From contig MU130542.1 of NCBI GenBank assembly GCA_015039465.1, forward strand, positions 375,377 through 439,376: a stretch of DNA of 64,000 bases, read 5' to 3'. This stretch comes from Phlegmacium glaucopus (taxonomy: Eukaryota > Basidiomycota > Agaricomycetes > Agaricales > Cortinariaceae). The translations under genes were made by a program, and so were the position numbers. Below, piece by piece: positions 26,198 to 64,000 of this stretch (within the stretch, counting starts at the first letter, position 1; the number at the start of each line of letters is the position of its first letter). The notes under the pieces were generated by a model. It had not been told where the DNA came from and did not search any database. It was given only the letters and a program-made list of their open reading frames with translations.

Positions 26198-29100
26198 TCA
26201 GTCCACAACTTCAAATCGACTCCGTTTCCCTCCCCTCTCATCACCTCCACCTCCTACATCATCAATCGTTCTCTTCATCCCACTCCCACCACCAGCATCC
26301 ATCCCCATCCCCATAAACCTTTCCCCATTAACAAGATTCTGCAATATCATATTATATTGCTCATCCGATAATCCCATCCCAGCAAGCGGGTTAATCCTCC
26401 CATCATCCTCACCCATTCCTAACAGCGACGTGGGACTCAACTGAGATGATGGTTGTTGTTGTGCTTGTGGTGGTGGTAATACAAGTTGTTGTTGTTGCTG
26501 TGGTTGATGATGATGCTGTAGTGGTAGTGGTAATAACGGTGGAGAAAGCGAGTTTATTGTTGAAAGCGCGTGCGAAGGATTATTATTACCGCCGACGAGA
26601 AGCCCCGCTACGGCCGGTCGTTGCAGCTGTTGCTGCATCATCATAGCATTAGTCATCAACACCTGTTCGAAATTCGCATCTGAAAGTGGAGGAACCCCAA
26701 CAGATCGTGGTATAACCGTCATTTGTTGCATAACTTTGAGATGCATGAGATGTTTCTAAAAAAAAAATCATGATTCGGTTCCTTGTTAGCGAACACATGA
26801 AAAAAAAACTACTCACTTCGAGCATATCCAAAAGACCTTCTTTCGTAAACGGTTTAGGTAGGATATCATTCATACCTGTCATGGGGCGTTATGGAAGTGA
26901 ATGAATGGATAGAATTTTTGTTTGCTTACCAGAAGAATAATATTCCATGATTTCGTTTGGTTTCGAGTTGACCGTCATCGATATAATAGGTGTACCCCTA
27001 TCAAACTTGCGTATCAAATTCGTAGCAGATATCCCATCCAACTTTGGCATCAAGATATCCTAAAACAAAATCAACAAACCCCCGTCAGCTAAAAAAAAAA
27101 AAGAAAACGCCGAAAAACGGGAACAAAAAAAAACTAACCATCAACACCAAATCATACTTCTCCAAATTCATCTTCGTAACAGCTCCAATCCCATCAACAG
27201 CTACATCAGTCGTACACCCGAATATTTTCAAAAATTTACTACTCAGTTTCCTTATCACCGCATCATCGTCTACCAAAAGTACGCGTGGTGGGACTGCCCA
27301 GCCCGGAACAAAAGTGGCTCGTCGGACTCGTAGTTTTTGAGAAGAGGAAGGTGGTAGTGCTGCTGGTGGGAGTGGGATGGATGGAGAGGGATTTGAGGGT
27401 ATGGATTTTGTTGTTGAGGATGGAATTAGGGATGTAGATGGAGAAGGACTGATCTGGGGTCTCTGTCGTACGATTCCTTCTTCTTCCCCTTCCCCATCAA
27501 CCCTATCCCCTCCTAGTAGTGGTAGTGAACCCATAATCTCAGACGCAACAGCAGGCCCATACATAAAATCTCCAAGATCCTTCGGCACACCCTCACCTGC
27601 GACACCAGCACCGGCAGCACCGCTACTGAAACCACCCGTATCAAACCTCCAATTCCCCGACGATCCATCATCCACAAAAGTATTCCGAGGCATTAAATGA
27701 CCAACAGTATACATTCGTAACCCTTCATTTCCATTCATCATCATAGATGAAGACGGTGATGGGGAATCAGAGTCGTCCTCTCCGAATGGGAGGAATGAGG
27801 GTACGGGTACGTTGTTGTTGTCGTTCATGGACGACGACGAGGAGGACGATGTGGTGGGTGGTGATGACGATGTTGACGGTTGTCTAAACATTTGTTGTTG
27901 TTGCTGCTGCTGTTGAGTAGTAGCCGAAGAGGACGTATGTTCGACATCACTTCCCCTCCTCTTCCTCTTCCCTCGTCTATCACCATCTCCTCGATCCATA
28001 ATAATCCTCTCATCTCCACCATTCTCCCTCCCTATACTCCGAACCAAACGATCTCGATGATATTCCATCATCTGCGCCAACGCTTCTTGTCGATTGATCT
28101 TCGGCTGCTGCTGCTGTTGACTCAAAGGTCCACCTTCAAATCGATCCACCACATCCGCACCATTCCTACTAGCATCACCAAACACGGGTCTATTATTATT
28201 GCCCCACCTCACATTCAAATTACGATCGGGGAGAGGTGATCCTATTTGTGATTGTGATTGTGATTGTGATTGTGATTGCGGGAGCGGGAGTGAATGGGGT
28301 GACGTCAATGGTTGAGATTGACAAAATGGTAAAGAAGAAGTTGGAGTCTGACTCTGCCGTTGTTGTTGTTGTTGTCCAAGTCCATTATCATCACCCTCCA
28401 TTCGTATAGAACTTACGATCGATGGCATCGAAACAGAAGTAGTAGATGGTGGTAGTAAAAGCCCTGCTGTAGTCATAGCGGTGGTGAAATGCCGATTGGC
28501 TGTCATAGTCGCTTTTAGTTTATCTAGATAGATCCGAGTTGTTGACAGTAGGAAGTGGGCGGTGGGGGCAAAGCGAACGAGATGATAGCGAAAGGCCGCA
28601 TATAGAGAATGATAAAAGGTCCATAGTTTTTTCATTTTGATCCATTTATTCATTTACCAAGCATACCGAATCATTCACATAGCGGTCACACGCCAAAGGT
28701 CCAACATCAGAGTAAAACGTAGCGGAGACCACCCGGAAAAAAAAAAAGGGAGAGAGACAGGGAAACAAGTCAGCAACACGTTTCAATTTCATCTTGACAA
28801 AGAAGAGAAAGGAGAAGGAAAAGACTAGACAGCGGCAAAGCCGAAGACGTCTATAACAGCGGATATCGTTCAACGCGACACATAAGAAACACAAGGCCTA
28901 ATCACGCGGCCCCAAACAACAGATCAAAACGCGACGACGCAACTCGCTCGCTCTAACGCCAACATTCTCATCGGAGCAGAAAGTTCAAGTCGAGGAAGTT
29001 GGGGGTGTGGAATTTACATGTGCCGGAACAAACGCAAATGCAAGGGGAAAGGAACGAAGGGGGTAATATAGCAAAACAAAAGATACAAAAAGAACTAGAA

Positions 29101-30758
29101 CGAAAAAAAGGATAAAAAAAGAAAAAACGCACAAAAAAAAAAGCTACTCACCCCTCTCACTCTCCCCACCCTCCCCTCCCAAAAAACATCTAATCAAACT
29201 CTTCACAACCCCATCCTGCTGAGCAACCCCTCTCTGAAACGAAACCATCTCAACCAACACACTCTCATAATTCTTTTCCAAACCTCTCATCCTACCATCA
29301 TACCCCATCTCCAAACCTCTCAACCTACTCTCATAACTCGATTCTAGATTATTGAGTCGAGTTTCATAGTTGGTTTCCAAGTTGTTGAGACGAGTTTCGT
29401 ATGTTGATTCCAAGGTGAGTAAACGAGATTTAAGCTCGGTTATTTCTTGTTTGAGTTGGTGGGTTGAGGAGGAGGAAGAGGCGGAGGCAGAGGAAGAGAG
29501 GTGGTGGTGGTGGTGGTATGAATTTGGGGTTGGAGTTGCGTAACCCAGGGATGGGGATGGAGAACGGCGGTTTATGGTATTAGGAGGGTATGGAGATGAA
29601 GTAGTGGTGGAATGATGGGGATGAGAATGGGGGTTATGATGTATGGAAGGAGAAGATGAACTATGATGATGATGGTGATGATGGTTGTTGTTGGTCGAAG
29701 AAGACAGAGAAGTAGTCGTACTATTCGGTATATTCACGTTTTTCCTTTGTGCTGGGACTTTTCTTTTGATATTCTCAAGCGCTTCTCTTCTATCTGCATG
29801 AAAATCTGGATGGCGGAAAGTCCAACTCTAACACGACATTGAGTACAAGAAACGAAATGAAAAGGGACGAGAAACCGTACATGTTCACCAAAGAGATTAT
29901 CATCCGTATTTTTGACTTTATGAAAGTCGTATTTATTCAACTGTCGAACAAAGCTTGCAAAGTTTGAATGTTTGAACATGCGAGGTAAGATAGATTTTGT
30001 GAATTCGTTCATATCCTATATATGAACATGAAATACACTTCAACGAACGACAAAGGAGACAGAACATACTTTAACAACAAAACAATCACCCAACGGTCCC
30101 CAACACACCACACCTTGAAACGAAGGATCTTCCAACATCCTACAAAAAAAAAGCCACACACCAAACCAATAAAAAACAATGAAGACGGTTATAGGACAGT
30201 TGAGGAAAAGCCACGCAACTTGTATAACTTTTTGACAAAATCACTTGTAGACGGCATAGAATCGTCCATATTTCTTCCGGCAGAAGATCCGTTCCCGTTA
30301 TGACCTTCCGGGACTTTACCCATAGACTCCCGTTTGATGTTGGATTGTTGGTGATGCTGTTGGAGGTGAAGCTGGTGGGGCTGGTGTTGGTGGTGTTGAT
30401 GATGATGCTGATGATGCTGCGGTTGGAGTTCTCTTGAACGTGACCAGGACGAAGAAGATCCGATATGCTCGTCGTTCCTATCCAAATACTGGGAATTGGA
30501 GGCGTTGGAAATTGGTGGAAGAGTAATGATAGGCGAATATGACTGTGGTGGTGGTGGATGGAGATTGTAGACCTGTTGGTGATGGTGGTGTTGGTGCGGC
30601 TGTTGTTGAAAAGGTTGAATATGTTGTCTTCCCGAAGGCGACGATGAAGGTGAGGATGCGGTCGACTGTTGGTGTTGTGGATAGCTGCCACTGGCAGGAC
30701 CAGTGCCAGTGGTGGTAGAGGTATCGCCAAGAGCGGTACCAATTTGGTGCAAATCCAT
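26198..30758 (-). CDS. skn7: Skn7-type HSF-domain response regulator
   Basis: Eight exons join in phase to about 1,183 residues: 30220-30758, 30070-30139, 29881-30015, 29152-29827, 27139-28523, 26930-27059, 26817-26875 and 26198-26755. The HSF-type DNA-binding domain (about residues 171-275) reads [16 protein letters not shown], then [20 protein letters not shown] and [17 protein letters not shown] coiled coil follows at about 373-445 ([20 protein letters not shown]). The receiver domain (about 885-1000) has the acidic pocket VLLVDDD, phosphoacceptor Asp936 ([13 protein letters not shown]) and the conserved Lys986 ([12 protein letters not shown]). Skn7 acts in the nucleus downstream of a histidine phosphorelay in osmotic, wall and oxidative stress. 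The protein is about twice the length of the yeast one because of Gln-, His- and Ser-rich linkers. The intron at 28524-29151 is 628 nt, unlike the ~50-nt rule here. Confidence 0.92.
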
Positions 30759-31834
30759 GATCGGAACTTTTGTCACTGTTTTTTTTTTATCGACCCAGAG
30801 GAAGTGAAGAAACAAAAGGTCAACGAACAACTCCGCCCTCAACATCCTTCTTTCAAGCCAACCGTCTGGCTCAGGTTGCCTGTTTATTTCTCATTTTTTT
30901 TCATCCACACCTTTCATTCAGAGTAAAAAGGTCTAGACCTCTAGAAGGGCCTAGATCTAACCTTGATCGGGACACTTCCGACGCCCGCCGTTCTCACCCA
31001 CTCAACAACAAGAACATCAGTATAACTGCATCTCGTCGGTGGAACAAAGAACTCACTTTCAAATTTCCAATACGACCAAGAGAGGAACTCAAAATGAATA
31101 CAAACTTGAACCCATCAGACCCTTTCAGACCCTCTTGAATTTTCAACTTCCTTTTCCGACCAAAGGGTCTGCTGTATCGCAGTGGGAGGCTGAGTCTTAG
31201 ATTCATCCTTATCCCTCTGGTCTTTATACCAAATTGCTTCCTCAGGGCCCCAAGGCCTTGGACTCAAATCTCAAGGCTCTCGAGTCGAGACTCGACCTTT
31301 AATCAATCCCGGCTCGGCCCTTTGGCCTCGTTCCCCCGTTCCCCCAAAAGACCTCGTCGGTTCTAGAATCAGGGCCTACTATGCGTGACGGCAATTCGAT
31401 TTTAATTCAACGGACAAGAGTATACTATCATATCCATAGAAATATGTTCTTTGTTGAGCTCATCACGCATATAGCCGCTACGACGCCCTGCATGCACCTA
31501 TATTTCCCTATATCGCTACGGCAGATACAGGCTTTTAAGGTTTTCGGTTCAAAATCTAAACGCCGACGAGAAAGCTGCGGCCCGAGGCCCGAGGATTCAC
31601 AGGCAAAAGGTACATATACTTAAAAAAAGATATTATACAAAACGTTTCGAATCTAAATCTCAGGGAAACCGTTCACCACGGAATTTATAATAGGAAGTCT
31701 CACGGCCTCTACACCATTAGCTTTACAGTTTACTTTCCAAATTCTTACGGTACGGATCTTATACGTTCAATTAAGCGTCCAATAATGTTTATTGCTCCAC
31801 AGCAGCGTAGACAGGTAATAAGCTGGTCTACAAG
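30759..31834. other. Upstream region of skn7, no supported gene
   Basis: Short frames only. The segment from 31200 to 31380 has several near-palindromic CTCGAGTCGAG-like words around 31275-31300 but nothing I can name. Confidence 0.4.
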
Positions 31835-32030
31835 GCCCTAACCCACGGAACTTTTTGTGAAAGTCAGATCAGATAGGACAACTTCAAGGAAATTCGAGAG
31901 TCTAGAGTCCTTCTAGGCCTTACGCGTCCGAGCTGATATGACAACCTCATTTTGTTTGTATCATATCGCAACTGACAAGTGAATTTTTTGATTTTACCAA
32001 CAGTTGCTCAGATTTGGGGACCCTCGCTAA
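31835..32030. repeat. Direct repeat, left copy (partner 36385-36605)
   Basis: It shares AACGGAACTTTTTGTGAAA, GAGTCTAGAGTCCTT, CGTCCGAGCTGATA, ACAACCTCATTTTGTTTG and TATCGCAACTGACAAGTGAA with 36385-36605 in the same order and orientation. The two copies bracket the ABC transporter block. Small indels distinguish them. Confidence 0.8.
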
Positions 32031-32358
32031 TTTTGCTGCACAAATCAGTTGCGTGACGCGCTTTGCGTGAGGGACTGGAGTAGAGTATCTCGGTTCTAGA
32101 GGGTTCTAGTCATTGATACAAGATGTCCGGTGAGATTCAAAGACGAGTTGTCAGCGATTGAACCAGACCGTTCAGCGAAGACATCAACTCCCCAATAGGA
32201 ACAGGAGAGTTAGGGATAGGCAATATATTTCAATCAAAAGAAGATTGCAGTGGAAGAATCGAAAGATCTCCTAGTATTCTATTGCACAGTAGTGTCTAGT
32301 GTCCATTATTGAAAGACAAGAGAAAAGAAAAAAATTCCATCCATGCTCGCATCTAAGA

Positions 32359-35040
32359 TCATTCTGTAACTAGAGGAAGCGAATCCGTATTCAAGAGATT
32401 ATCCACGAAAGCACTTGCTTGTATGTTGTATAGTTTCGCATATTCGCCTTTCGCTTCCATGAGCTGTTCATGTGTCCCAGTTTCCGCCACCATTCCATCT
32501 TTCATGCATCTAGAGAAATAAGAATGGAATTTCGTTCGTGTCAGAACGCAGTCGTGAGGAGAGAGAGAAACATTGAACGCACATAATCTGGTCGGCGTGT
32601 TTGGTGAGATGTCCAAACCGATGAGTCACGAAGACCATTGTCTTCCCCTCTCTGACAGCTATAAGCCGTTCAAATAACTTCAATTCTCCTTCTGCATCCA
32701 GTGCAGAGCTCGGCTCGTCAACAGCCACAAAGTTAACTTTACCAGACTTGAAACGCATGAATGAACGCGCACTAACGTGTCTCATTTAAGCAATCTGATT
32801 AAGGAAAGGGTTAAGAAAACACTCACGCAGCAACTCTCTGGCGTTCTCCTCCTGAGATGTCGATCTTCTTCTCAAGTTTCTTCATCTCTTCATATAATGG
32901 ATGAGTATCGTTTCTATACAAGTTCCAGGAGAAACTGTTGGTGAGGGGATCCAATACTGTGTCTATGCCCTTATTGAGCTTCTCCATAAATTCCAAGGCG
33001 CCCCCGTCTTTAGCTGCCTCCATGATCATTTCCTTATCGGTTGAAAAAGCGGCATACCCCAAACCAATGTTCTCGCCAAGGGAGAGGGGATAAAGCTGAG
33101 TATCCTGGCTCAGAATTACAGTTGCCTGATGAAGGTCGTTCACACGATAGTCGCCGGATGCATAACCGTCAATGAAGACTTGGCCAGATGTGGGGTCGTA
33201 GAGACGGGAAAGAATTCGAATTATTGTCGACTTTCCGCTCCCGTTCTCACCGACAATTACGATAAGTTGGCCAGATTTAATGTTCATTGAAACTTTATTA
33301 AGGGCGTCCGTTGCTTTTTGACTCCCTGGATAAGAGAACGAGACATCCCTAGTAGATTATAAATGTAGACAATGAATAAGGAAGCGCTGGACATTGATGC
33401 TGTGAGGAATTTATATACCTCAGTTCAAAAGACATGCCCTTTCCGCCATTTAGATTGATTTCTCCCTTTTCCTCGATCGGTGGGTACGGAAGGGTTCCAT
33501 CGTTCATGATATTATTCGCGACCATGGACGCTTCATACACCTTCTTGATAGACGAAATACTCCTACGGAATTGCTCACTGCTTTGAAAAACGCTTTCGAG
33601 TGACGACCGGAGAGTCCCTGACGACCGTTGAAGAATGGCAATAGAAGCCACGGAGAATTTGTGAGGACTAAGCAGTGCGGAAAAAGCGCAGAAAACCTAA
33701 AATAAAAGAACGCTCAGGTTAGATTTGAAAGTTGTAGAAGCAGAAAGGAACACACTGTTGGCAAGTCACCAAGCATCTTGCTTATAATCTCGAAGACAGG
33801 TGAGCTCCTTCGAGAATATAGGATTATGGGGTGATCATCAGACACTTCCCCAAGGCGTTTGGATGTGATCCCATATTCTGAGAAAGAGGCGTCACGCAGA
33901 GTCGCAGACACATTTCGAAGCGGCATGAGACTGACCTTTTATGATCCATTCTCCCAGATTGTTGCTTATGATATCTTGTCGATATCCGTCATCAATGAGG
34001 GCTTGTAGAGCACTCATTCGTTTACGATCCTCATTATCCACGTACCCAAAACAAACTATGAACGCGTGATATAATGAGCCTTTGCTTCAAGGTTCGAAAG
34101 GCTGGAGGTTTGGACAAGAACGCACCTTTATCCCACAAGTCACGAGCATACACGGTGTTAACGATGGGCTTTATGACGCATATAATTGCAAAGAAAGGTC
34201 CTCCTGTCGATCGTGACAGATTGAAAATCAGTGCAAGATGGCTGGCGACGGATAAGAGCTGAGTGAGAAAGCGAATGATAGTTGCAAGTGATTCCCATGC
34301 ATCGCTCGCCTTGACATCATGCTTGCTTGCTGCCTCTATAATGACGTGTATCAATATCAAAATACTGAATGATGGCTTGGGCTTTACCTTGTGAAGTAGG
34401 AAGATCGATGCCAACGCTAGCTAGAAAATGAAAAATGGATACCTCATTATCGAAACTCAAAGTAGACATTGATGGCTTGTCTACCTTTCATCAAGCGCAA
34501 CTGGAAGTGACCGGTAATCCGAGCTTTGAGGAGGTTGAGTATATTGTCACTAAATCAAATGTTCAAGGCAAGGTCTGATAGTCAAAGAGATCGATCACCT
34601 CTGCCATGTGAGATATGCGACAAAAAAAGAGCACATAAGAGTGGCCGTTGTTGCAGATATAATGGCTGTAACATCAGGTCTTCCTGTGATGACACCTTCC
34701 TCAATCTAGCCCCCCACACACTGGATCAATTGAAAGCCTCTGAAAAGGTTGCAGTACATACCCGTCGCAACAACGTACTGGAAAAATGCATTGACAATGC
34801 ACCCTCAACACCTTGCCAAATCTGGCAAAATACGAAGAAAATGGAAAGACGAGGCGCCAAGGCGAAGATGTCTGAGCATAATTGATAAAAGAGCGGCAGA
34901 GCGGACTTGACATCTTCCCAACGCTGAACGAAGTTACGACCAGCGACCTTACCGATCTTGAGGTTCCATACTCCTAGTCTGACGTCTTCAATAGTAATGT
35001 TCGAGTTGGCAGAGGCTTTTTTTCCCCCCGCTGTGGCCAT
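32359..35040 (-). CDS. ABC half-transporter (membrane domain plus ATPase)
   Basis: A spliced minus-strand gene from ATG 35040 (MATAGGKKASANSNITIEDV) to TGA 32359. Membrane-like segments include DVTAIISATTATLMCSFFVA, ATIIRFLTQLLSVASHLALI and SVASIAILQRSSGTLRSSLE. The nucleotide-binding domain follows, with Walker A GENGSGKST, an ABC signature ISGGERQRVA just before an intron, Walker B with the catalytic Glu (VNFVAVDEPSSALD) and an H-loop (MVFVTHRFG). The C-terminus is ETGTHEQLMEAKGEYAKLYN and ends LPLVTE. The insert before the signature (WNLYRNDTHPLYEEMKKLEK) is unusually long compared with standard half-transporters. It needs a partner or homodimer to work; the substrate is not apparent. Several exon ends in the membrane half are approximate. 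Confidence 0.85.
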
Positions 35041-40579: not shown

Positions 40580-41485
40580 TGATAATCTAGGTACAGTGAG
40601 TTAATGACGAAAATAACTACTAGTAGTTAGATGGAGTGGCTCACCTCAGTCACTTATTATAACGAGTGGGGTGCATCTCAATTAATAGTACGGTATTTAT
40701 ACAATACAACACAATAGGTCGTATGTGGCTGGCCACCTTGTAGCACGGTGGCCAGTGGCACGATGGCCCGCTTTGTTTAGTACGCTTGTTCACAGAGACA
40801 TCAAATAATATTAACGCCCCTCCTCACTGTGAACATAGTCTCCTCGGATGGAATCACGATGCGTCACGGGATGGATAAACATCAGTAAAATGTCATTTGA
40901 GATTCCAGTTTCAAGTGGTTTCGAGCGGTTTCGAGGATTCAAGAATCGTCTACGAAGACCTTGAAAAGCTGTGCGAGCTTAGGGGGAGGCCCGCATCAGC
41001 AACCACCTCGGCCCTTCTATGGAGTCCCGCCGAGCGCCATAGACTTGGATGATGAGAGACGCATTCTATGTCTTACCGAGGGACAAAGATGGACAAAAGA
41101 GCGAAATATTGGTTACATTCCTGACCAGGACCCTTGAATGTTAACGGGAATGTCGTCAAAATAATTTAGATGCGTGTGAACGCATTTCCTTAATAGACAT
41201 TGGTCTTCGGATCTTTATCCATCTTTAGTTCTCACTGTTGTGCCAACAACAATCAATCGCTTTGACCAGCGCATATTTCCAAATCATATACCCTTCAGCG
41301 TTTCTGGATACCCACAATTCCTGGTATTTCATGTAAGTCATCTGACCTCAGATAACATTGTTGAACATTAGTTCTTCTCTGCCAAGTAACCAATTACCCC
41401 GTGATCACCTTCTGCAGACGCTCGTTATACACGCAGCATACACACCCGACTCCCCCATTATCATCAGTGCTCACCCCCTTGCACC
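40580..41485. other. Intergenic; upstream region of WD40-kinase unit
   Basis: From about 41260 the sequence is the duplicated upstream segment that also occurs in pieces at 47840-47960, 49320-49414, 52400-52497 and 62590-62775 (CCCTTCAGCG...TTCTGGATA; GACCTCAGATAACATTG; GATCACCTTCTGCAGACGCT). No gene is seen before that. Confidence 0.5.
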
Positions 41486-43746
41486 ATGGAAAATTCATTC
41501 AAATATGTTTTCGTCGAGACAAAGTCCAGCTGGTTCATTGGGTCATCCCACTCCTCCCTTTCATTCTCATCAGACGGAACGACTATAGCTGGTACAATGG
41601 CCGTGAACAGCCCATATTGCAGAAATGGCAGAGTTTATTTCTGGGAGACAGCCACTGGCGCCGTTATCTCGTTAATTAATGACTGGTCATCTGTGGTCTT
41701 TTCACCAACTAACCCGGACATGGCCATCGTCGTTGGATCGAAGGGCATCCAAGCAGTGAAGCGGACTTCACCTAGAGCGGAGGCGTGGAACGTATGTGGA
41801 ATTTGTAAATCCTATTTTACTGCGCCTGCGATCGCCGTCTACAGATCTGGCGGCAAGACGACTGTGCAAGGCTTTGATAGCCGTCTTTATGAACACGACG
41901 CAACTAGCTTCCAGTTTCTTCTGAGGTATACCGAGCGTTACACCGTCAAGGCATCGAGTGTCGCATACTGTCCGCTTGACCCCGAGTTGCTCATTGTTGG
42001 CCGCGAGGATGGACATCTTGAGGTCATATCACACACTGGTCAAGGCACCTCTCAGTTGCATTGCCAACTCAAGCCAGTCAGTTTTGTAAAGGTTTCTGCG
42101 TGCGCGTGGTCGCAGGACGGAAGATGGATTGCAACTGGCGACGACGTTGGCGACATCCGTCTTTGGAATGCAAGTGTTACGACTAACATCTCACTCGCGA
42201 GGATACTACCTTGTGATCGATCCAGCCCCATCACCTCTCTTATCTTTTTGCCGGACAGCACTGGACTCATAATTCTTTGTGGTGGCTATCTTACCGTGTG
42301 GGATATTGTTCAAGGCGTATATGTCGCCAACTCTGGGTTGCCGGCTATGGCGATGAACATAGCGTTGGATGGTCCTCGGAATCGCATTGCCGTGGCCATT
42401 AACGGCACAATCTTTTTATATGAGCTCAAGCTACACCAGCTGAATCTACACCACCAAAAGCTACACCAGCAGAAGCTACACCAGCAGAAGCTACACCAGC
42501 AGAAGCTAAACCAGCAGAGGCTACACCAGCAGAAGCTACACCAGCAGGAGCACCAGCAAAAACTACCGGGCCAGCAGAACCCACTCCACCACAATCGCCA
42601 GACGAAAGGAAAACATTCCATCTCGTCCGAACTTGCAGGATTTGATATCACTAATAAGGTTGTGAAATCGAAGCGGGGTCATTTTGTTAGCCTCTACTTC
42701 GATATTTACCGTGGTGTATGGAATTTCGACACACCCCGCATCTTCCAGCACGTTGTTGCGATCAAGGCACTACGTCCTGGCTTTAATCCACGCAGCAAGA
42801 CACAAGAAAGGGAGGATTTTGAAGATGTACGTAAATTTAAACTCTTATGCCTTTATGTATCCATTCACGGTACTTACCTTTCACCTAGCGGCTCACCAAA
42901 TGTCTGACTACGTGGGCGAAATTGACACACGATAACCTCCTTCCGTTATTGGGTGTCAGTATGAACTTTGGTAGATTTCCTGCAATCGTCACATCGTGGA
43001 TGCCAAACGGTACGCATGAACTTACTCTCTATTTCGTCCTTCTGAAACGTGATCATAACCATAGGTCTTTTAAGTGATTACATCAAATCGGAAGAGGAGT
43101 ATGACAAGATGGAATTGATCGTTGGCGTAGCCAGAGGCATTGCGTACCTTCACTGTGAGATTATGTCTTGTTCTTCCTATCCTCAGCAACTATATTCTCT
43201 TTCACAGCGGAAGGCGTTGTTCATTCGGATATACGAGGGGTATGTTCATTCAAGAATTATAACATTAGCAACGAAATCTGAAATTCATATTAGTCAAGTT
43301 TTTTGGTTGACGAGCTCGGAAACGCACGTCTGGCTGACCCTGGCCTCCATTCTGTCTTTGCCAACAGTCCATTAATAGTTAGTGGGACAATGAATGTCCT
43401 ATATCGCTGGATGGCGCCTGAGTTGTTGAAGAATTCATCAGCAAAGGCTACTAGCGCGACAGATGTTTATTCTGTTACAATGACTTCCTTGGTATTTGTT
43501 TTCATATTCAAGTTGTTAGCATTATCGTTGATAAATTTCACATAGGAAATATTCACGGCAAATGATCCTTTCGAAGGCGATAGCGATGCTCTAGTTGCAA
43601 GCCAGGTTCTTAACAACCAACGTCCCGAAAGACCCGAGGATGTTGGGGATATGCTCTGGTCTTTGTGGAATGAGGGATGGAACCAGGACCCCGCGAAGCG
43701 TCCGGACATGGCAAGCTACGTGGGGCACTTGAATCAATTGGCGTAA
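41486..43746 (+). CDS. WD40-repeat / protein-kinase-like fusion, copy 1
   Basis: Six exons join in phase to 660 residues: 41486-42826, 42889-43009, 43065-43154, 43208-43239, 43294-43491 and 43546-43746. Residues 1-310 are WD40-like ([65 protein letters not shown]). A Gln/His/Lys-rich linker of about 315-370 follows. The kinase-like domain has the beta-3 Lys427 ([10 protein letters not shown]), HSD (H523-S-D525) in place of HRD, Ser530 where the catalytic Asn is expected, DPG (543-545) in place of DFG, and an intact APE ([13 protein letters not shown]). These losses suggest weak or no catalysis, that is, a pseudokinase used as a scaffold or sensor. The equivalent gene at 49415-51572 shares all introns and the same substitutions. 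Confidence 0.85.
42428..42560 (+). repeat. In-frame 15-bp minisatellite (KLHQQ linker)
   Basis: The unit AAGCTACACCAGCAG repeats about eight times with substitutions and encodes K-L-H-Q-Q. The second gene copy has only about two units (50360-50390). The antisense strand is open as a Cys/Trp-rich frame, a by-product of the repeat. Confidence 0.9.
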
Positions 43747-45009
43747 ATTGAGTTTCATTCTGTTCCCAAAACTCTTGATCTTTCTTGCGAAATTGGTTTA
43801 TTCCGAACAAAAGTCTATCTTTCCTTTCATCGTAGCTAGGTACTTACAACAGGGGTGGTTAATTTTCCACTGTGCTTCGGTATCATCGTCATCTCCAGGA
43901 AAACGGTGTTACATTTTCATTATGGATTCGAGTTAAGGGAATGTAATGAATGTAAGATTTATGCTTTTTGAAGCAATGATTATTTTTTCTCTTGTCTGTT
44001 TTCTTACTTTTAGTGCCTGAGCTTCGAGCGATATCTTGAATAAAATATGTTACTAATAGCTATTCGCGAGGTTGGCTCTGATAGGATATGACATTCGCAT
44101 ATGACCTTGGCCATCATCTACCAAATTCCAGTCAAGTCTCTTTCGAAGAGTGTTCCACGACGTTGAGTTGTGGGTTATGCATGAATATTGAGTGAGAGGA
44201 CAGTGGGGCTACTTGGGAATGTATGGCGCCGTTATAGACAGGGAAAAAAGGATCTGAGTATATGTCGTTTCTTGTATTTGTGGTCGCTCACTAAATATGA
44301 TAATCAGAAATAGTGGCGTGGTCGAAACAAAAATCGAAAAATGAGGACCCAGGGAGGTGGCAAATGATGCACAGAGAAAGGTTCGAATAAGGTGCGTATC
44401 TCATACTCAGACCATAACTTCGTTTTTAATGCGAAGCGAGGTACAAACAAAGTATCAGAATTTTTGTATTTGAGACAAGGAGAAGTGCACATTCTCCGTT
44501 TCTCTTTCCCTCCTTCTTCGTTGGCACAGAAACACTCGACAAGCTCCTAGGTCGAGCACCGCCTGCGTTACTTCGTTCCTTTTTCACCCACCTTCCAATC
44601 CCAAGCAATTCGGCAAATAGTACCCAGCTGCCTCCTCCGATCCAGAGCATCAACCAGTCAAAAATGTTCATACACCATGTGCTCCCTCTGCCGAAGCGTG
44701 GCCCACCTGCCCACGCGTTTCGTCTCAGCTCTGGGTTCGGATGTGTGTTTTTACCTAATTCAGCTTGCACAATCTGAAGCAACGCAGCCGTAAAATTTAT
44801 GTAACAAATTTCTCTTATAACTACGCTACTGGTAGTCGTAACGCAAAGACAACTCATACTATGATCTTTTCCCAAGATGTAAGGGTCCCCTTAGACTTTC
44901 AACAAACCCTTACTTAAACAATCGAAACTATCACCTTGTTATTCCATATCATCGCCATGAGGTTCAAAGTCGAGGGAATGTGGCTTGTGAGTCGTGACCC
45001 TGCAGCGCA
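43747..45009. other. Downstream part of the duplicated unit, copy 1
   Basis: It matches 51573-52384 with small indels, then continues about 370 bp further than copy 2, to the LINE insertion point. A minus-strand frame at 44426-44875 is listed separately. Confidence 0.6.
44426..44875 (-). CDS. Hypothetical frame conserved between duplicated units
   Basis: 149 codons (MGKDHSMSCLCVTTTSSVVI start), with one hydrophobic segment (FDWLMLWIGGGSWVLFAELL) and a basic C-terminal half. The last ~85 codons are also open in the second unit (52171-52400; RLMLWIGGGSWVLFAELLGI), with mostly conservative changes. No family is recognised, and the conservation could simply reflect recent duplication. Confidence 0.3.
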   Translation of the reverse strand: MGKDHSMSCLCVTTTSSVVIREICYINFTAALLQIVQAELGKNTHPNPELRRNAWAGGPRFGRGSTWCMNIFDWLMLWIGGGSWVLFAELLGIGRWVKKERSNAGGARPRSLSSVSVPTKKEGKRNGECALLLVSNTKILILCLYLASH

Positions 45010-48706: not shown

Positions 48707-49320
48707 AGTATCCAACTCTATAAGAATAAACATTCTTGATATCTTTCTATGGCAAGTGAGTCCATGAGTCCCAGCTCGTCACTTGCACCATAACAATATC
48801 ACGTTTGGTATGTCAGATTCATCTAGACAAACGATCACCATCCAGTGTAGCATCTGACCACTGAGAACAGGGATAATAATCGGCGTAAATCTCATTTTCT
48901 GATGTTAATAACGCTATTGTACTAATTTTAACCTTGAGAATCATCTCAGATATTCAGTATTATCTAGTATTATTCATGCAGTGACCAGTCAGATTACCAA
49001 AAACATGTGGCTTCCACAAAACGAAGAAAATCAGATCACAATCGCTATTTTAGTCCACTTACTCTCAGTCAGAACTCGGATCTGCCGTGCTGAAAGCAAC
49101 GGCCCGCTCAAACCAGTATTTGACTTTCCAAGCTCCTTGTTCCAGACTACCATCCGCTGGTATATTCCTTTTTAAAGGTGAGGTGACATTGAGGACGCAG
49201 ACAGAGAGCGGGATGAGAACATTACGAAGCCTTAGTCAACGCAAGTTAAGTATGGCATAGACCCTTGTCACAGAGTGACGGTACAAATAACTCCAAATAA
49301 GTTTTCGGTTGAAAACGACT
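48707..49320. other. Intergenic filler between element and WD40-kinase copy 2
   Basis: No gene is supported. It is not shared with copy 1, so it forms part of the sequence inserted between the upstream segment and the gene. Confidence 0.4.
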
Positions 49321-49414
49321 CTGCCAAGTAACCAATCCCGTGATCACCTTCTGCAGACGCTGCAGCATACACACCCGACTCCCTCATTATATTCAGTGCT
49401 CACCCTCTTGCACC

Positions 49415-51572
49415 ATGGAAAATTCATTCAAATATGTTTTCGTCGAGACAAAATCCAGCTGGTTCATTGGGTCATCCCACTCCTCCCTTTCATTCTCATC
49501 AGACGGAACGACTATAGCTGGTACAATGGCCGTGAACAGCCCATATTACAGAAATGGCAGAGTCGATTTCTGGGAGACAGCCACTGGCGCCGTTACCTCG
49601 TCAATTAATGACTGGTCATCTGTGGTCTTTTCACCAACTGACCCAGACATGGGTATCGTCGTTGGATCGAAGGGCATCCAAGCAGTGAAGCGGACTTCAC
49701 CTAAAGCGGGGGTGTGGAACGTATGTGGAATTTGTAAATCCTACTTTACTGCGCCTGCGATCGCCGTCTACAGATCTGGCAGCAAGACGACTGTGCAAGG
49801 CTTTGATAGACGTCTTTATGAATACGACACAACTAGGCTCCAGTTTCCCCCAAGGCATACTGAGTGTTACACTGTCAAGGCATCGAGTGTCGCATACTGT
49901 CCGCTTGACCCCAAGTTGCTCATTGTCGGTCGCGAGGATGGACATCTTGAGGTCATATCATACACTGATTACGGCGCCTCTAAGTTGCATTGCCAACTCA
50001 AGCCAGTCAGTTTTGTAAGGGTTTCTGCGTGCGCGTGGTCGCAGGACAGAAAATGGATTGCAACTGGCGACGACGTTGGCGACATCCGCCTTTGGAATGC
50101 AAGTGTTACGACTAACATCTCACTCGCGAGGATACTACCTTGTGATCGATCCAGCCCCATCACCTCTCTTATCTTTGTGCCGGACAGCACTGGACTCATA
50201 ATTCTTTGTGGTGGCTATCTTACCGTGTGGGATATTGCTCAAGGTGTATATGTCGCCAACTCTGGGTTGCCGGCTATGGCGATGAACATAGCGTTGGATG
50301 GTCCTCGGAATCGCATTGCCGTGGCCATTAACGACACAATCTTTTTATATGAGCTCAAGCTACACCAGCAGAATCTACACCAGCAAAAACTACCGGGCCA
50401 GCAGAAGCCACCCCACCACAATCGCCAGACGAAAGCAAAGCCTTCCATCTCGTCCGAACTTGCAGGATTTGATATCACCCATAAGGTTGTGAAATCGAAA
50501 CGGGGTCATTTTGTTAGCCTCTACTTCGATATATACCGTGGTGTGTGGAATTTCGACACACCCCGCATTTTCCAGCACGTTGTTGCGATCAAGGCACTAC
50601 GTCCGGGCTCTAATCCACGCAGTAAGACACAAGAAAGGGAGGATTTTGAAGATGTACGTAAATTTAAACTCTTATGCCTTTATGTATCCATTCACGGTAT
50701 TCACATTTCACCTAGCGGCTCACCAAGTGTCTGACTACGTGGGCGAAATTGACACACGATAACCTCCTTCCGTTATTGGGTGTCAGTATGAACTTTGGTA
50801 GATTTCCTGCAATCGTCACATCGTGGATGCCAAACGGTACGCATGAACTTGCAGTCTATTCGTCTTTCTGAAACGTGATCATAACCATAGGTCTTCTAAG
50901 TGAATACATCAAATCGGAAGAGGAGTATGACAAAATGGAATTGGTCATTGGTGTAGCCAGAGGCATTGCGTACCTTCACTGTGAGATTATGTCTTGTTCT
51001 TCCTATCCTCAGCAACTATATTCTCTTTCACAGCGGAAGGCGTTGTTCATTCGGATATACGAGGGGTATGTTCATTCAAGAATTATAACATTAGCAACGA
51101 AATCTGAAATTCATATTAGTCAAGTTTTTTGGTTGACGAGCTCGGAAATGCACGTCTGACTGACCCTGGCCTCCATTCTGTCCTTGCCAACAGTCCATTA
51201 ATAGTTAGTGGGACAATGAATGTCCTATATCGCTGGATGGCGCCTGAGTTGTTGAAGAATTCATCAGCAAAGGCTACTAGTGCGACAGATGTCTATTCCG
51301 TTACGATGACTTCCCTAGTATTTGTTTTCATATTCAAGTTGTTAGCATTATCGTTGATAAATTTCACACAGGAAATATTCACGGCAAACGATCCTTTCGA
51401 AGGCGATAGCGATGCTCTAGTTGCGAGCCAGGTTCTTAACAATCACCGTCCCGAAAGGCCCGAGGATGTTGGGGATATGCTCTGGTCTTTGTGGAATGAA
51501 GGATGGAACCAGGACCCCGCGAAACGTCCGGACATGGCAAGCTACGTGGGGCACTTGAATCAATTGGTGTAA
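49415..51572 (+). CDS. WD40-repeat / protein-kinase-like fusion, copy 2
   Basis: Starts at ATG 49415 ([20 protein letters not shown]) and ends with TAA at 51570-51572. The same six-exon structure as copy 1 gives about 626 residues. The first exon ends at 50653 and the last begins after the ACACAG near 51369. It differs from copy 1 by scattered substitutions and by a linker about 34 residues shorter ([18 protein letters not shown]). The pseudokinase signatures are the same: HSD, Ser in place of the catalytic Asn, and TDPGL in place of ADFGL. The WD40 part keeps [15 protein letters not shown] and DIRLWNASV. Downstream sequence also matches copy 1 until about 52384. Confidence 0.85.
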
Positions 51573-52399
51573 ATTGAGTTTCATTCTGTTCCCAAAACTC
51601 TTGATCTTTCTTGCGAAATTGGTCTGTTCCGAACAAAGTCTATGTTTCCTTTCTTTCCACCGTGCTTCGGTATCATCGTCATCTCCAGGAAAACAGTGTT
51701 GTATTTTCATTATGGATTCGAGTCAAAGGAATGTACTGAATGTAAGATTTATGCTTTTTGAAACAATGATTATTTTTTCTTTTGTCTGTTCTCTTACTTT
51801 TAGTCCCTGAGCTTCGAGCGATATCTTGAATAAAATACGTTACTAATAGCTATTCGCGAGAGTGACTCTGATTGGATATGACATTCGCAGACCTTGGCCA
51901 CCGTCTACCAATTGCCAGTCAAGTCTCTTTCGAAGAATGTTCCACGTTGAGTTGTGGGCTATGCATGGATATTGGGTCAGAGGGCAGTGGGGCTACGAGT
52001 GTATGGCGCCGTTATCATTTTACATTGTCAATGCGAATAGACGGAAAAAACGAAATAGCGGGGTAGTCGAAACAAAAATCGAAGAATGGCGACTCAGCGA
52101 GGTGGCAAATGATGCACAGAGAAAGGTTGGAATCAGGTGCGTATCTCCTACTCAGATCATAACTTCGTTTCTAATGCGAATCGAGGTACAAACAAAGTGT
52201 TGGAATTTTTGTCTGTGAGACAGGGAGAAGTGCACATTCTCTGTTTCTATTTCTCTTTCTCTTCGTTGGCATAGAAATGCTCGACAAGCTCCTAGATCGA
52301 GCACCTTCTGCGTTACTTCGTTCCTTTTTTACCCACCCTCCAATCCCAAGCAATTCGGCAAATAGTACCCAGCTGCCTCCTCCGATCCAGAGCATCAAT

Positions 52400-57300: not shown

Positions 57301-58430
57301 GTTCGATCAATTTTGGAATGACAATACTCTTTTCAAATGCAGGTACTCTCCGTCGAAGTGGCTTTATCTCAACATATCTGGTATCAGTGCACCACTTGAC
57401 ATCTACTCGCGTGCTTTGAAAGGAAACGAAAACATCATCCTCATCACTTTCAGTCATTCTGATTCTGATTCCGATACCAACTGGATTCAGGATACAATTC
57501 GTGATTTACCACGGGTGACTTCAATATCTCAGGGCTTTGGACGTCTACCCGCCATCCACCGTGATCCGCCTCTCTTTATCAAATCTACCAATAATGATCT
57601 AATCACATTCGCGCAAGAAATTCGACCCAAGTTGAACTCTTCCACATACATTTTCATGGAGGCTGACCGCTCTAACATGTATTCTGATCCAGTGGGACTT
57701 GGGAATAATGCAAGAGTTTTAATCTCATTCGTCGCCCCAACATCTGGCCAAAGTCTTATACTGAGACTCAAACATTCCGGTAAAGAGGATGGGCCTCTCG
57801 AAGTCACTCTAGGATCAACCATAATTCAACTTAACCCCTCATCCAATTCGTTACTCACGACTGATGATATAACCCTCCATCCAATTCCCGATCCTTCTGA
57901 ATCTGATCACCTTTCGTTTGAGCCAGGGATCCGGAATGACATTGTTATCCAGGTTAGAGGAACAGCCTACTGGCAGGTCCACGGTCATTTTTTATATGAC
58001 ATAGAATTGCTTGATGAAGCTGGAAAACACTACGGTAAAATGGATCCAGAGTATGGAGGATGAGAACTAGTCCACATTCTGCTTTATCCATACATTTTCC
58101 CACTTGTTCGAGTTTTCTAGCGAAACTGGATGGATCGAATGCATATTTATTGAAATGAATTTCATGTCTTACTTGTTTTGATCTCGAAGTACGAATTATA
58201 ATACTCGGATTATTTAAATACTTGACAGGAATCGGGATTATGAGTACAAACACTTGAAACTTCTTTGGTCTTCCAAGGACAAGATGCGAGGGCTTCCGAG
58301 TCTTGTCTAGCTAAAAGGAGATGAGAGTAATCGTCGAGCATGGGGACGTTACCGACGTATTGTAAAGAGTTGGTATTGTACAAAATTGTTACCTAGCACA
58401 TAGATGGATAGTACATGGAGAGGCGGGAGG
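54325..58430. repeat. Segmental duplication, copy B (inverted partner 6957-10870)
   Basis: Opposite orientation to copy A. It includes the whole large membrane-protein gene, about 700 bp upstream and about 360 bp downstream. The downstream match runs through ACAAACACTTGAAACTTC and AGATGCGAGGGCTTCCGAGT to CTAGCACATAGATGGATAG, then stops. Confidence 0.85.
55058..58063 (+). CDS. Large uncharacterised multi-span membrane protein, paralog B
   Basis: An open frame begins at 54947, but the ATG at 55058 (MSSSGGGIGTTLISGIQDIA) matches the start of paralog A and is preferred; the extra 37 codons lie in the repeated upstream sequence. It has 1001 residues with no introns. The N-terminal block is AAILPLLGTEQCEVQVSSAL. 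Helices are near GSLGMVIAGFKTLAACFLF, MMATTALLCAFSIAPYIYL, LFPVVRATGGFITATLIQLL, TWLLLCILLLGILASVVGYV and WLCLEAGLSVMRLVIWAWNP. A long charged helical region follows (RERMLLDEKRVKWITRRMEM), then a beta-rich C-terminus ending GKMDPEYGG. It differs from paralog A by many substitutions but no frameshift. I know no functional assignment for this family. Confidence 0.85.
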   Translation: MSSSGGGIGTTLISGIQDIAAILPLLGTEQCEVQVSSALTRGYLYAAATPMSIFGSLGMVIAGFKTLAACFLFRNFEGAKILGNMGFEPRGENLSLIMVDGKGKDKGRYIIETRMDELIKELNIDKNRITGVSHKSAAWNVKMMATTALLCAFSIAPYIYLNRGANSLKTSTIWLFPVVRATGGFITATLIQLLIQRRIIILSQKYLVKLKNGDQPPKKDIETAVERHTKKHSMDARTWLLLCILLLGILASVVGYVGCFSVVQNSLLKIGPVGWLCLEAGLSVMRLVIWAWNPTRDDAPPLEIILELDEYECSPLPTCNKDNEEILKYKVLPLTRAREFLKFITSFTGLIEPFSNPDLSLYYTLTRKRPSNQSVPADGENERENGDNGPENATKHKLGERSLYITVFDHKERTTRVYTRDDKGDIFYSTNSNAPLVNVGHLLEVEIDAPIDAKSDPVCSDSNNLDSLRKHHRSILEHIRYRVGAASRSKAYTIENSWTMKLEDTISARQRLREEENGNDWKTAVEKGKEEERKEESSLICDYFKHSSIERERMLLDEKRVKWITRRMEMISKETKERFEGEYRVNKQAVENKQELPMKMLSFLEQYFMELLLVYEVKEWEQRFWNEFQVSRDQICNDRVDEKERLTREWRTNCWKRLNPQMRAAEKRLADLDKHNDWFERQKVHREWTSYIRQFFEGIEIPNSEALSDLKEEMRDSYLVDVGEIRLRMEREIEDTEFRLKRGSELGRFDQFWNDNTLFKCRYSPSKWLYLNISGISAPLDIYSRALKGNENIILITFSHSDSDSDTNWIQDTIRDLPRVTSISQGFGRLPAIHRDPPLFIKSTNNDLITFAQEIRPKLNSSTYIFMEADRSNMYSDPVGLGNNARVLISFVAPTSGQSLILRLKHSGKEDGPLEVTLGSTIIQLNPSSNSLLTTDDITLHPIPDPSESDHLSFEPGIRNDIVIQVRGTAYWQVHGHFLYDIELLDEAGKHYGKMDPEYGG

Positions 58431-58455
58431 ATAACTTACGAATGCCAAAGGGCCT

Positions 58456-59535
58456 TCAATAGTCTGAATCGCAGTCGTCATAACTGCTGTGACCACTCCC
58501 ATCTTGTTGGACAACCTCGAACTTCAGGCTGCACTTCGTGTTGTTCTTGGAGTAGTTCACTTCGAGCAATCGGATGGCAACATCGACAGCGCCGATCCTC
58601 TGGGACTCGGACTTGATAAACATTGAACCAAAGCCACCAAAACCCGTTCCAAACGTGCGCTGTGGTATTCCTGGAGCACAAAGGAATAGGACAGGTAGGC
58701 CTGGACCGTCAACATGGAAGGAATCAACACACACCACGGGTTGCCTTTCAATGGTTTGAGCTCGTCCCCGAAGAATGACTCAATATGGGCCTGGGAATTC
58801 TACTGAAGTGATCAACAATGTGCTCCTAAATCAACATAATGGTGGATGAGCGAAGACTTGCGAAATGAATAATTGTAGCGACGCTCTTCGGTTTATTGGT
58901 TGGCATGGGCTGGATCACAAATCTTTACAACAGAAACTCGGCCTCAGAATACACACCTTATCGATTTCTATGGACTTGGGAGAGCCTTCAAATTTGACAG
59001 CTTCATATTTCCATTCCTTCTACAGCTTAAAAGGGTCGAGCAAACGAACAGTCAGTCCTCAGGAAATCTCAAGAGGGGAAGAATTCGCACCTAGTATCAA
59101 ATACCTTGCTGACCTGCATCCTTCTTTTCTTTTCTTTTCGTCCATTTGAATCGATGCAGCAGAAGGTCTGGCAGCAGCTGGCGTTGACGCGTCAGGCGCG
59201 GTGCTCGTTCGAGCGCGTTTCGTTGGGGGTTGTTAGACCAGTTCATCCTCGAGCTCAATGATACATGTCCGCAATAGCTTCCAAGATCTGAGAAAACAAC
59301 AGTTAGGGTTTAGACATCGGAACAGACATGGTCATAAGAAGGGTTACCTCTGGAGTGATGTGAAGAGATGAAAACAAGTGGAACTCGTTTGGAACGCGAC
59401 AATGTCATGAATAACGGGACATAGATGTTAAATAGGTACACACCTCCATTTTCAAGAGCTAAAGCATTATTTTTCCTTTGTCCAGAGTGGCGAGAGTCGA
59501 CTGGGGAAGAGGGGCGGCGCTGTCTTTGGGTGAAG
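58456..59535 (-). pseudogene. Spliced hypothetical gene, probably decaying
   Basis: The most solid part is the last exon: VILRGRAQTIERQPVVCVDS, FHVDGPGLPVLFLCAPGIPQ, RTFGTGFGGFGSMFIKSESQ, RIGAVDVAIRLLEV and SGHSSYDDCDSDY, with a TAA at 58456. Upstream are SWKLLRTCIIELEDELV, directly followed by a TAA, then PPTKRARTSTAPDASTPAAA in the same frame, and further up MTSPKDSAAPLPQSTLATLD (ATG near 59538). The in-frame TAA near 59235 suggests a broken gene, unless an intron removes it. I do not recognise the family; the Gly/Phe-rich last exon looks like a conserved globular domain. Confidence 0.4.
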
Positions 59536-59539
59536 TCAT

Positions 59540-60645
59540 GATTGCATGTTTTGGTCCGCCAAAGATTGTGAAAGGGAATGAGAAGTCGTAACAGTCAAAA
59601 GCTAAAGCGCTAAAACGTCCCAGTTTCTCACGCCACAGACGCAGGCGGTGTAAGGATCGCCTGAGGCCACCTCTTAACTGCAAACCCCCACTAGGCTGCC
59701 TTGGAATCTAATGGAACCACTTTGATAAATTCCAAACTTTCGCATTGGCATCTTACAATCCCGAACGAGCCTTAGGGTGGAAATTTTGAAACGTTGACTC
59801 GTGATATATTTGAGATCCCTGATTTGGTCATGTACCAAGGCGGTGGAATTTTTGACTTTGAAAGTAAAGTGATTGGTGTGATTTCGGTACTAGAGAGGAC
59901 GGTTGTGGATCTGTTTTGAGGTATATACTATTTCCAGAGCAGAGAAGGGACGGCCATCATACAATGCACGACGTCAATCTATACCTACTATTTCCTATAT
60001 AACAGCTTTCGAAATTATTGATCTGTTCCAAAGTCTGTCTTTCTTTTTATCATGGCTGGTTACTTAAAGTTACGGGTGGTTACATTTCCGCCATGCTTTG
60101 GTATCAACGGCAGTACTATGCTCTCTGAAACAAGGATCGTTGATTCTTTTCTATTTTATTACTTACCTTATGCATAAAGGCTTCGAATCTCGATTGATCA
60201 TTTCGTAAAATCCTCAGTGTAGCTGGCAAGTAGATTAGATAGCATAAATCGTGTGACCTCGTTGACATATCGTAGTAATACAGAACATCGCTTGCCTCCT
60301 GCCGTTACGTGCGTCGCTAAACCATACGGCCTGCCAGTGCTTGACGGGTCTACGAGCCACATCATGGAGTCCAACTTCAACAGCAATCTTTAATACCTAT
60401 ATTTTGGTTCCGATGTGGAACTCGGCATTACAGTCAAACATAATCGATAATCATTGACCTAAAAGAATCGCAAATATTGGGAAAATGAGCATTTTGTACG
60501 GAGAAATAACAAAAAGTGGATTTTTTGGGACTCCTGTTTCGTTGTACAAAAGTAACATCTGCTGGACATAGCTCCACAATCTCTCACGTACACAGTGAGA
60601 GGCTATATTTCACCTTCACAAATGATTCCTTAGTTCCGCTCCGAT
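59540..60645. other. Intergenic, no supported gene
   Basis: Short frames only. From about 60560 to 60645 the sequence matches the 3' flank at 39660-39770 (CAATCTCTCAC...CAGTGAGAGGC), part of the duplicated membrane-gene segment. Confidence 0.45.
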
Positions 60646-61611
60646 CTATACCGGATCATCTTCTTGTATACCACCAAAGCAGTGGCAAATGGTGTATAAG
60701 TAGCTCCTTTCCATCCATGACTCGCTTGACCATACTCCGGGCCACAACCGTCGAGCAACAAATAAAACGGGAATCCAGAGAGGTGGGAAAATTAAATCGA
60801 TGGCTGGAGAAAGGGCCGAGGGAGAACCAATGCTCAACCCTGGTCCTAAAATAATTCCTCCAAGGGCGCCGGCGCGGGTTGCATGTAAAACATCAATTCC
60901 CCCGAGGTCGACATGGTCATGGAGGAGAACAGCACACCCTATGGTGCCTGAGAGTGTAGAAAGCAACAGAACCAAGCACATCCTTATATACCAAGGTATT
61001 GTGTTCTGTCTTTCTTCGTTGCGTGTCCGCGGCATATATAGTAGCGAGAGTAATGCAACGATAAATGTTGATATTAAACAGCCTACTGCCCCAATGTAAG
61101 CTGCGAAAGTGTTGCTTGTGTAATTTTCATGGTGTATGGCCCGAAGGATGCTGTTTCCAATGAGTCTGATGGTTGAAAGAAAGTGGATTTAGGCATTTCA
61201 GAGGCCTGAAGAGAGGGAAAAGGTGACGCACATTGCGATAATTCCTGTCGATGCCAGGGACGCGACAGTGATACCCGCACAAACGCTGGGGGGGACAAGG
61301 TGATTAGAGGGGAGAAGAACGATAAAATGGCGTAGTCATTGAAAGACTTGCAGAATCGCTACCACAATCACAATCGGCGTCATTAAAGCGAGGAAAATGA
61401 TCCAAAGGAATAAAAGGATATTATCGAGGACAGGTTTTATACTGCAAGTTCTCTCCGTTCGAACTTTGACTGGCGGATATGCATCTATTGATGTCTGGCT
61501 GCTCTTAATCTTGGTCGGGTCTGGGAATGATGTGGTACTCGTTCTCGGTGGTGGTGGATCGGTAACTGGGGATGGTTGAGCGGCGACGGTTGTTGAAGGA
61601 CTCATAGTCAC
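60646..61611 (-). CDS. Small multi-span membrane protein with Pro-rich N-terminus
   Basis: ATG at 61611 (MTMSPSTTVAAQPSPVTDPP). A Pro/Ser/Thr-rich N-terminus of about 55 residues is followed by a first helix (LLFLWIIFLALMTPIVIVVA). After an intron (acceptor CCCCCCAG near 61287) comes VCAGITVASLASTGIIA. After a second intron come LIGNSILRAIHHENYTSNTF, AYIGAVGCLISTFIVALLSL, CLVLLLSTLSGTIGCAVLLH and DHVDLGGIDVLHATRAGALG, then IDLIFPPLWIPVLFVARRLW, with a stop at 60646. There are about six helices. The family is unnamed. A shorter paralog lies at 39771-40500 in the same orientation. Confidence 0.7.
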
Positions 61612-62589: not shown

Positions 62590-62833
62590 ATGATATTGCC
62601 AAACCATATACCCTTCAGCGCTTCTGGATATCCATAATTTCATGTAAGTCATCTGGCTTCAGATAACATGTTGAACATTAGTTCTTCTCTGCCAATCGCC
62701 CCGTGGGCCCGTGATCAGACACTCGTTATACACACCTGACTCTCTCATTATCCTCAGTACTCACTCTCTTGTACCATGGAAAATTCATTCAAATACCTTT
62801 TCGTTGAGACAAAATCCGGTTGGTTCATTGGGT
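62590..62833 (+). pseudogene. WD40-kinase 5' fragment, interrupted by hAT terminus
   Basis: The upstream segment (CATATACCCTTCAGCGCTTC; CAGATAACATG) is followed by ATG 62776, MENSFKYLFVETKSGWFIGS, which is the start of the WD40-kinase protein. It is cut at 62833 by TAGTGATGTTAAGGCTCGG, where the transposon-like sequence begins. Only 19-20 codons remain. Confidence 0.85.
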
Positions 62834-64000
62834 CTAGTGATGTTAAGGCTCGGCTCGGCTCGGCCTGGATACCGCGGCTTGGGCCCGGCTTTCAAGGGCT
62901 TGGGCTTGGGGAAAGGTCAAGCAGTAAACCATTCGCGAAAGGAACGGACAGCCCACTTGTCTTTCCGACTATGGAGAAACATCTCACAACTGTGTAAACA
63001 CATACTCTACCCGACAGACCGACCACTTCTCTCGAACCTTTTCGACAGCGTTCTAACTATCGAACGTGGAAAGGTGTCGACTTACCCCAGTACATGTCTG
63101 GAAGTGTTTGGAAGAACGACACTCGTGAGAGAAAATAGAAACTTTGATACGAATGAAAACTATGTTCTGACGACTCTTTCGAGTTGTTCGTAAAAGGAGT
63201 AGGTGACAGGGTTGCAATACGTTGCGACAGGGACGGGAACTTTTCGATATATGTTGAACCCTTTTCGTTGTTCTTGTTGGTCTTCGTCGTGGCAAAGTTC
63301 TACGATATCTGCGCCGGTACCTCTTCTAGTTAGTTATGATACTCTTTTGACGACTTAGGCTACGAGTATAATACCGCTACGCACTCATGATTCATAAAGG
63401 AAAGTAGATGTACAAAATATTGGTATATATCAAAATGTGGGGGCTGCTTTCTACTTTATAAAGTTCTTCTTGACCAGGCGACTGGAGGTCTATCTACACC
63501 GGTGATACCGTTTCTTATAACATGCAAGTGCGTAGTCATAGTTGGGTGGGTATTTTGATTACCATAAGTCAAATTCCTCGCGATACTTGCGTACGTAGTA
63601 AGGCCATGGTACGGTGGATGAGGTGTAGGATGTAGGTGAGTGCTATCGCTGATACTGTACTCGCTACTACTGTTATCACTGGGTTGTTTTGGTACCGAGC
63701 GACTTAAACTCGCGATGGAGTACTGGGTGCTACAACAGGGTCTCCCCTACAGAGAACAACTCACCACCCCACATGCAGAAGTTAGAGGGAGAGGACTAAC
63801 TCTGAGTAACCCACAAATCAACTTGATGTCGGCGATAGGACACACCCCAAGTGAACGAACACTGATGGAGAGTTATTACCGTAGCAGACAAAGTTCGCTT
63901 ACGCGCAAGAGTAGTCGGCCATAGTGTAACTCGTTCGCAGCATTAACCGAGGTTCCACTATAACACCTTCGGGACGTCAAGAACTTCACACGAAAGGCAA
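62834..64000. mobile_element. hAT transposon, right part printed with inverted polarity
   Basis: 62834-62895 looks like a hAT terminus (TAGTGATGTTAAGGCTCGG, then GGCTCGG/GGGCTTGG-rich subterminal sequence). From at least 63010 to 64000 neither real strand codes for anything. The plain complement of the printed bases, read left to right, gives a spliced hAT transposase C-terminal half: SLHLSTAEWGHVQTFTNLLA; TAEKAQQAFSSSTVPTLCNA; ALEKLYTTWEKQQEQPEAAP; MEKINQYYEKTAESDAHIMA; KYFKKNWSADLQ; KPWLAEFERYLMTHDVVPEG; MSLVEWWG. After an intron it ends with the dimerisation motif YPVWGSLACDYLSIMASSVS, then SECAFSSAGITLSKRRNWLQ and GDIVEALQFLKC. Introns in that reading have correct GT-AG ends. The element runs off the window. 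Confidence 0.85.

Follow-up and report, generated by a model that had tools for sequence, protein, structure and literature searches.

The end of the window holds an ordinary hAT transposon copy whose inner part is spelled backwards beside a run of N, one case of an assembly error that recurs in this genome and that concerns data quality rather than biology. The window is the whole stretch of 64,000 nucleotides analysed here (G000:C186:375377-439376); its letters are identical in the assembly, which comprises 60,534,613 bases (60.5 Mb) in 259 contigs, and all comparisons rest on the letters of that assembly.

A hAT transposase in the un-reversed complement

The complement of 62800-64000, read in left-to-right order, spells a hAT-like protein, and by eye the printed frames do not. 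An earlier note on this DNA had identified the complement-only form of about 63010-64000 as the C-terminal half of a hAT transposase, including the dimerisation region of the family, and both statements held. In a translated search against Pfam, one of three complement-only pieces matched PF05699 (Dimer_Tnp_hAT) at E 2.7e-12, with 46.7 bits against a cut-off of 21.4. This C-terminal dimerisation region lies at 63820..63999 and has no strand in the usual sense, being found in the un-reversed complement only. The second piece had no Pfam match, and the third matched only the unrelated DUF1685 (E 0.025), below the family cut-off. None of the 10 longest open pieces in the six printed frames had a Pfam match at E 0.1. 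Stretches of the form GT...AG, candidate introns in the complement-only reading, were read by eye only and have approximate coordinates (63120-63167, 63382-63451 and 63773-63821).

The DNA comparison gave the same picture. Against five loci with hAT copies, the complement-only and reverse-only forms reached 2346 bits, whereas the best score of the printed and reverse-complement forms was 28.3 bits, in line with the earlier statement that these two forms give only meaningless frames. Chance similarity is ruled out, as the best of 200 3-mer shuffles reached 38.3 bits. The complement-only reading amounts to the plus strand spelled backwards in place. Searched against the genome, the complement-only form of 62924-64000 gave 12 match rows, with C167 at 99% and C126 at about 95% identity over nearly the whole query and the rest shorter or weaker. 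On C167, two further open pieces of the matching locus (L010), past the alignment, had no Pfam match.

Position and limits of the reversed segment

The hAT copy is inserted in a normally written repeat on the plus strand (62593..62834), which is 77.6% identical to window positions 41273-41544 and, over 62728-62834, 88.8% identical to 49367-49473. The forward-written hAT terminus follows at 62835..62921, also on the plus strand. Here 62834-62922 aligned to L010:4511-4594 with 84 of 89 columns identical and five gap columns, and identity to other copies ranged from 79 to 94%. From 62922 the element is reversed in place but not complemented; the reversed part runs to the end of the window (64000) and on to 64261 (C186:439637), 1,340 bases in all. 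It is followed directly by 3,033 N (L009:1639-4671) that begin at window coordinate 64262. Reversed, 62922-64261 shares 1,325 of 1,340 positions with L010:4594-5932, and the segment is 94.4% identical to C126.

The end of the forward block and the start of the reversed block both correspond to L010:4594, so the segment is in its proper place, collinear with the terminus at 62835-62921, and the switch lies at 62921/62922, with one C ambiguous. This falls inside the interval from 62834 to about 63010 given in the earlier note, although that interval was too wide, and position 62834, taken there for the hAT terminus, is the end of the host repeat. Terminal inverted repeats at both ends and an 8-base target site duplication are criteria for hAT transposons; the second terminus of this copy would sit within or past the N run. 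Past the N run the letter order is normal, with pieces that match window positions 57867-61521 forward at 78-96% identity. These belong to L009:4876-9815, a same-orientation duplicate of those window positions. Further repeat copies at window positions 41377-44653 and 49319-52398 are 88.6% alike and represent a widely distributed family, with 66 first-look candidates (unconfirmed matches) in the genome.

Composition as a detector of reversal

A strand-symmetric 5-mer score, trained on a set that contained normal hAT copies, was -109 for 63001-64000; the 248 one-kb windows left of 62900 averaged +66 (sd 25). Left of 62900 this score revealed no other clear reversed stretch, one of the 248 windows falling just under zero (-0.7). 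Trained on window positions 1-60000 only, the segment scored -78.4 and seven of 147 held-out windows were negative, a set that contains overlapping loci as well as L007, later found to be reversed. L015 also scored negative, yet it holds an abundant repeat in its normal form; the k-mer score is by itself not a safe detector. Among the fetched loci, the window had a single second reverse-only match at E 1e-6 (1-238 to L039), best put down to L039 itself, which adjoins a reversed repeat on C145.

Separate reversal on the two sides of an N run

The 5-mer score also picked out L007 on C15. Its reversed letters agree with C135 at 99% over 1,231 bases, and the copy on C135 has coding sequence for RVT_1, RT_RNaseH and Integrase_H2C2 domains. 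On C15, LTR-element sequence reversed in place flanks a run of 784 N at C15:27407-29605 and 30390-32976 (L033:663-2861, L033:3646-5000 and L007:1-1232). The two sides were reversed separately, and each is collinear with the forward LTR that flanks it. Only the ends of the left piece (27407-29605) aligned to the normal copy, covering 771 of 2,199 bases (734 + 37), and its gap-side end carries on the forward LTR from the very next base. Of the 2,587 bases of the right piece, 30390-32975 aligned and one base (32976) remained over; its gap-side end leads into the right LTR, which is written forward. C15 shows that the unit of reversal there is one gap side.

Recurrence across the assembly

The abundant repeat at L015:740-1333 (C126:114089-114682), about 600 bases long, gave 1,153 first-look candidates forward and 62 for its reversed letters, and 40 candidates were scored in each direction. 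For the reversed query, the 40 scored of 62 candidates yielded 44 match rows at 78-97% identity. As a rough figure, about 5% of the first-look candidates for this repeat are reversed (62 of 62 + 1,153). Nine of 12 fetched reversed loci contained N, against one of 23 forward loci. The reversed loci were the best 12 of the scored matches, with 1.5-kb flanks; the forward loci were cut automatically and several overlap, with L001, L007 and L030, which carry reversed pieces, and loci requested by place excluded.

The three reversed loci without N within 1.5 kb were on C164, C219 and C145. On C164, N occurs about 2.3 kb from the reversed repeat, and stretches of about 8.6 kb each on C219 (375878-384451; L037, L048, L049) and C145 (777912-786496; L039, L050, L051) contained no N. 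The reversed repeats on C219 and C145 are perhaps closed gaps that were filled backwards.

The repeat also crosses a switch on C106 (L046), where gap edge and flank both carry its position 348. For L043 on C11, the flank is at position 223 and the gap edge at 224 after 11 extrapolated bases. Not every edge is affected: four gap edges, the right one on C186 and three on C167, looked normal by k-mer score. Edges of the fetched reversed-repeat loci were mixed by the same score (three of 10 were negative, and C164 had a weak -5), likely owing to the odd composition of the repeat itself. Genome searches found no second reversed copy of the printed hAT segment or of the printed C15 LTR piece, and a reversed query from another repeat family (window positions 42550-44000) had no matches.

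Orientation of the underlying DNA

Substitutions between copies bear on the orientation that the DNA had in the cell. The segment and C167 differ by 13 transitions, all of them at CpG in the true orientation, against one of 13 as printed. For C126 the counts were 31 of 51 and 11 of 51, and two normal copies compared as a control gave 41 of 61 and 11 of 61. At 11 of the 13 transitions against C167, C167 has CpG and the segment TpG or CpA; assuming decay of CpG, these 11 changes arose in the lineage of the segment. The C15 pieces behaved alike, with 20 of 28 against seven of 28 at CpG in the right piece and six of seven against one of seven in the 734-base part of the left piece. Since the CpG changes fit the un-reversed orientation, the DNA in the cell is normal, and it is the file alone that has its letters in the wrong order.

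Origin of the reversed pieces

The N runs are taken here as assembly gaps, although an N run need not be one, and collinear geometry beside them indicates a scaffold error. The earlier note had left three options: an artefact of the data, a corrupted piece of scaffold or a deliberate alteration. The first two fit our results; an edit of this window alone is rejected, because the assembly carries the same letters and reversals of the same kind occur on other contigs. We are confident that this is an assembly artefact, in which a hAT copy lies across a scaffold gap and the string at the gap edge was written backwards. In the sequence of events that we propose, the 1,340 bases between the flank, which ends at 62921, and the N run would have been treated as a separate string, and a step of gap filling or contig extension would, most likely, have written it in reverse letter order, uncomplemented. 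Other gap edges were handled likewise, each extension being reversed on its own, and some fully closed gaps were probably hit too. We infer that a gap-filling program was responsible and that closed gaps account for the reversed places with no N nearby.

A scaffolding step could instead have put small contigs, separate from the flanks, at the edges of the gaps, complementing but not reversing them. It would produce the same letters, and the affected pieces do adjoin N runs; we consider it improbable, as the pieces on C186, C15 and C106 meet their flanks without N and to the base, which fits extension of the flanks better. Less likely still is a deposited assembly that is sound, with the genome copy or the window altered deliberately or in later handling, for which many places on many contigs, preferentially beside N runs, would need to have been changed. 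That the DNA of the organism truly has reversed polarity, for which the printed letters alone speak, can be set aside almost completely, given between-copy changes at CpG of the un-reversed orientation, the N run that ends the segment and the separate reversal on either side of a single N run, and we know of no polymerase or repair pathway that writes DNA in reversed polarity.

Returning to backwards extension at gap edges, we lean towards a systematic error of the whole assembly, with backwards gap-filling strings at the edges of many gaps and also within closed ones, where no N remains. If this is true and many assemblies were made with the responsible tool, similar backwards pieces would be hidden in other public genomes, and a reverse-only scan would show them. 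Genes and repeats in such pieces escape both six-frame searches and DNA searches of both strands, and would be counted as missing or as orphans. A cheap screen, applicable to other assemblies too, is to compare every sequence with itself reversed.

Comparison with known systems

The element resembles other members of the hAT superfamily (PF05699) in its dimerisation region and in one terminus common to normal copies in the same genome, and differs from them in that the inner part of the printed copy runs backwards and only one terminus is in view. Reversed or complemented-only records occur in sequence databases. The pieces described here are like such records in reflecting a string operation without a biological counterpart, and unlike them in lying within scaffolds, at gap edges, and in recurring within one assembly.
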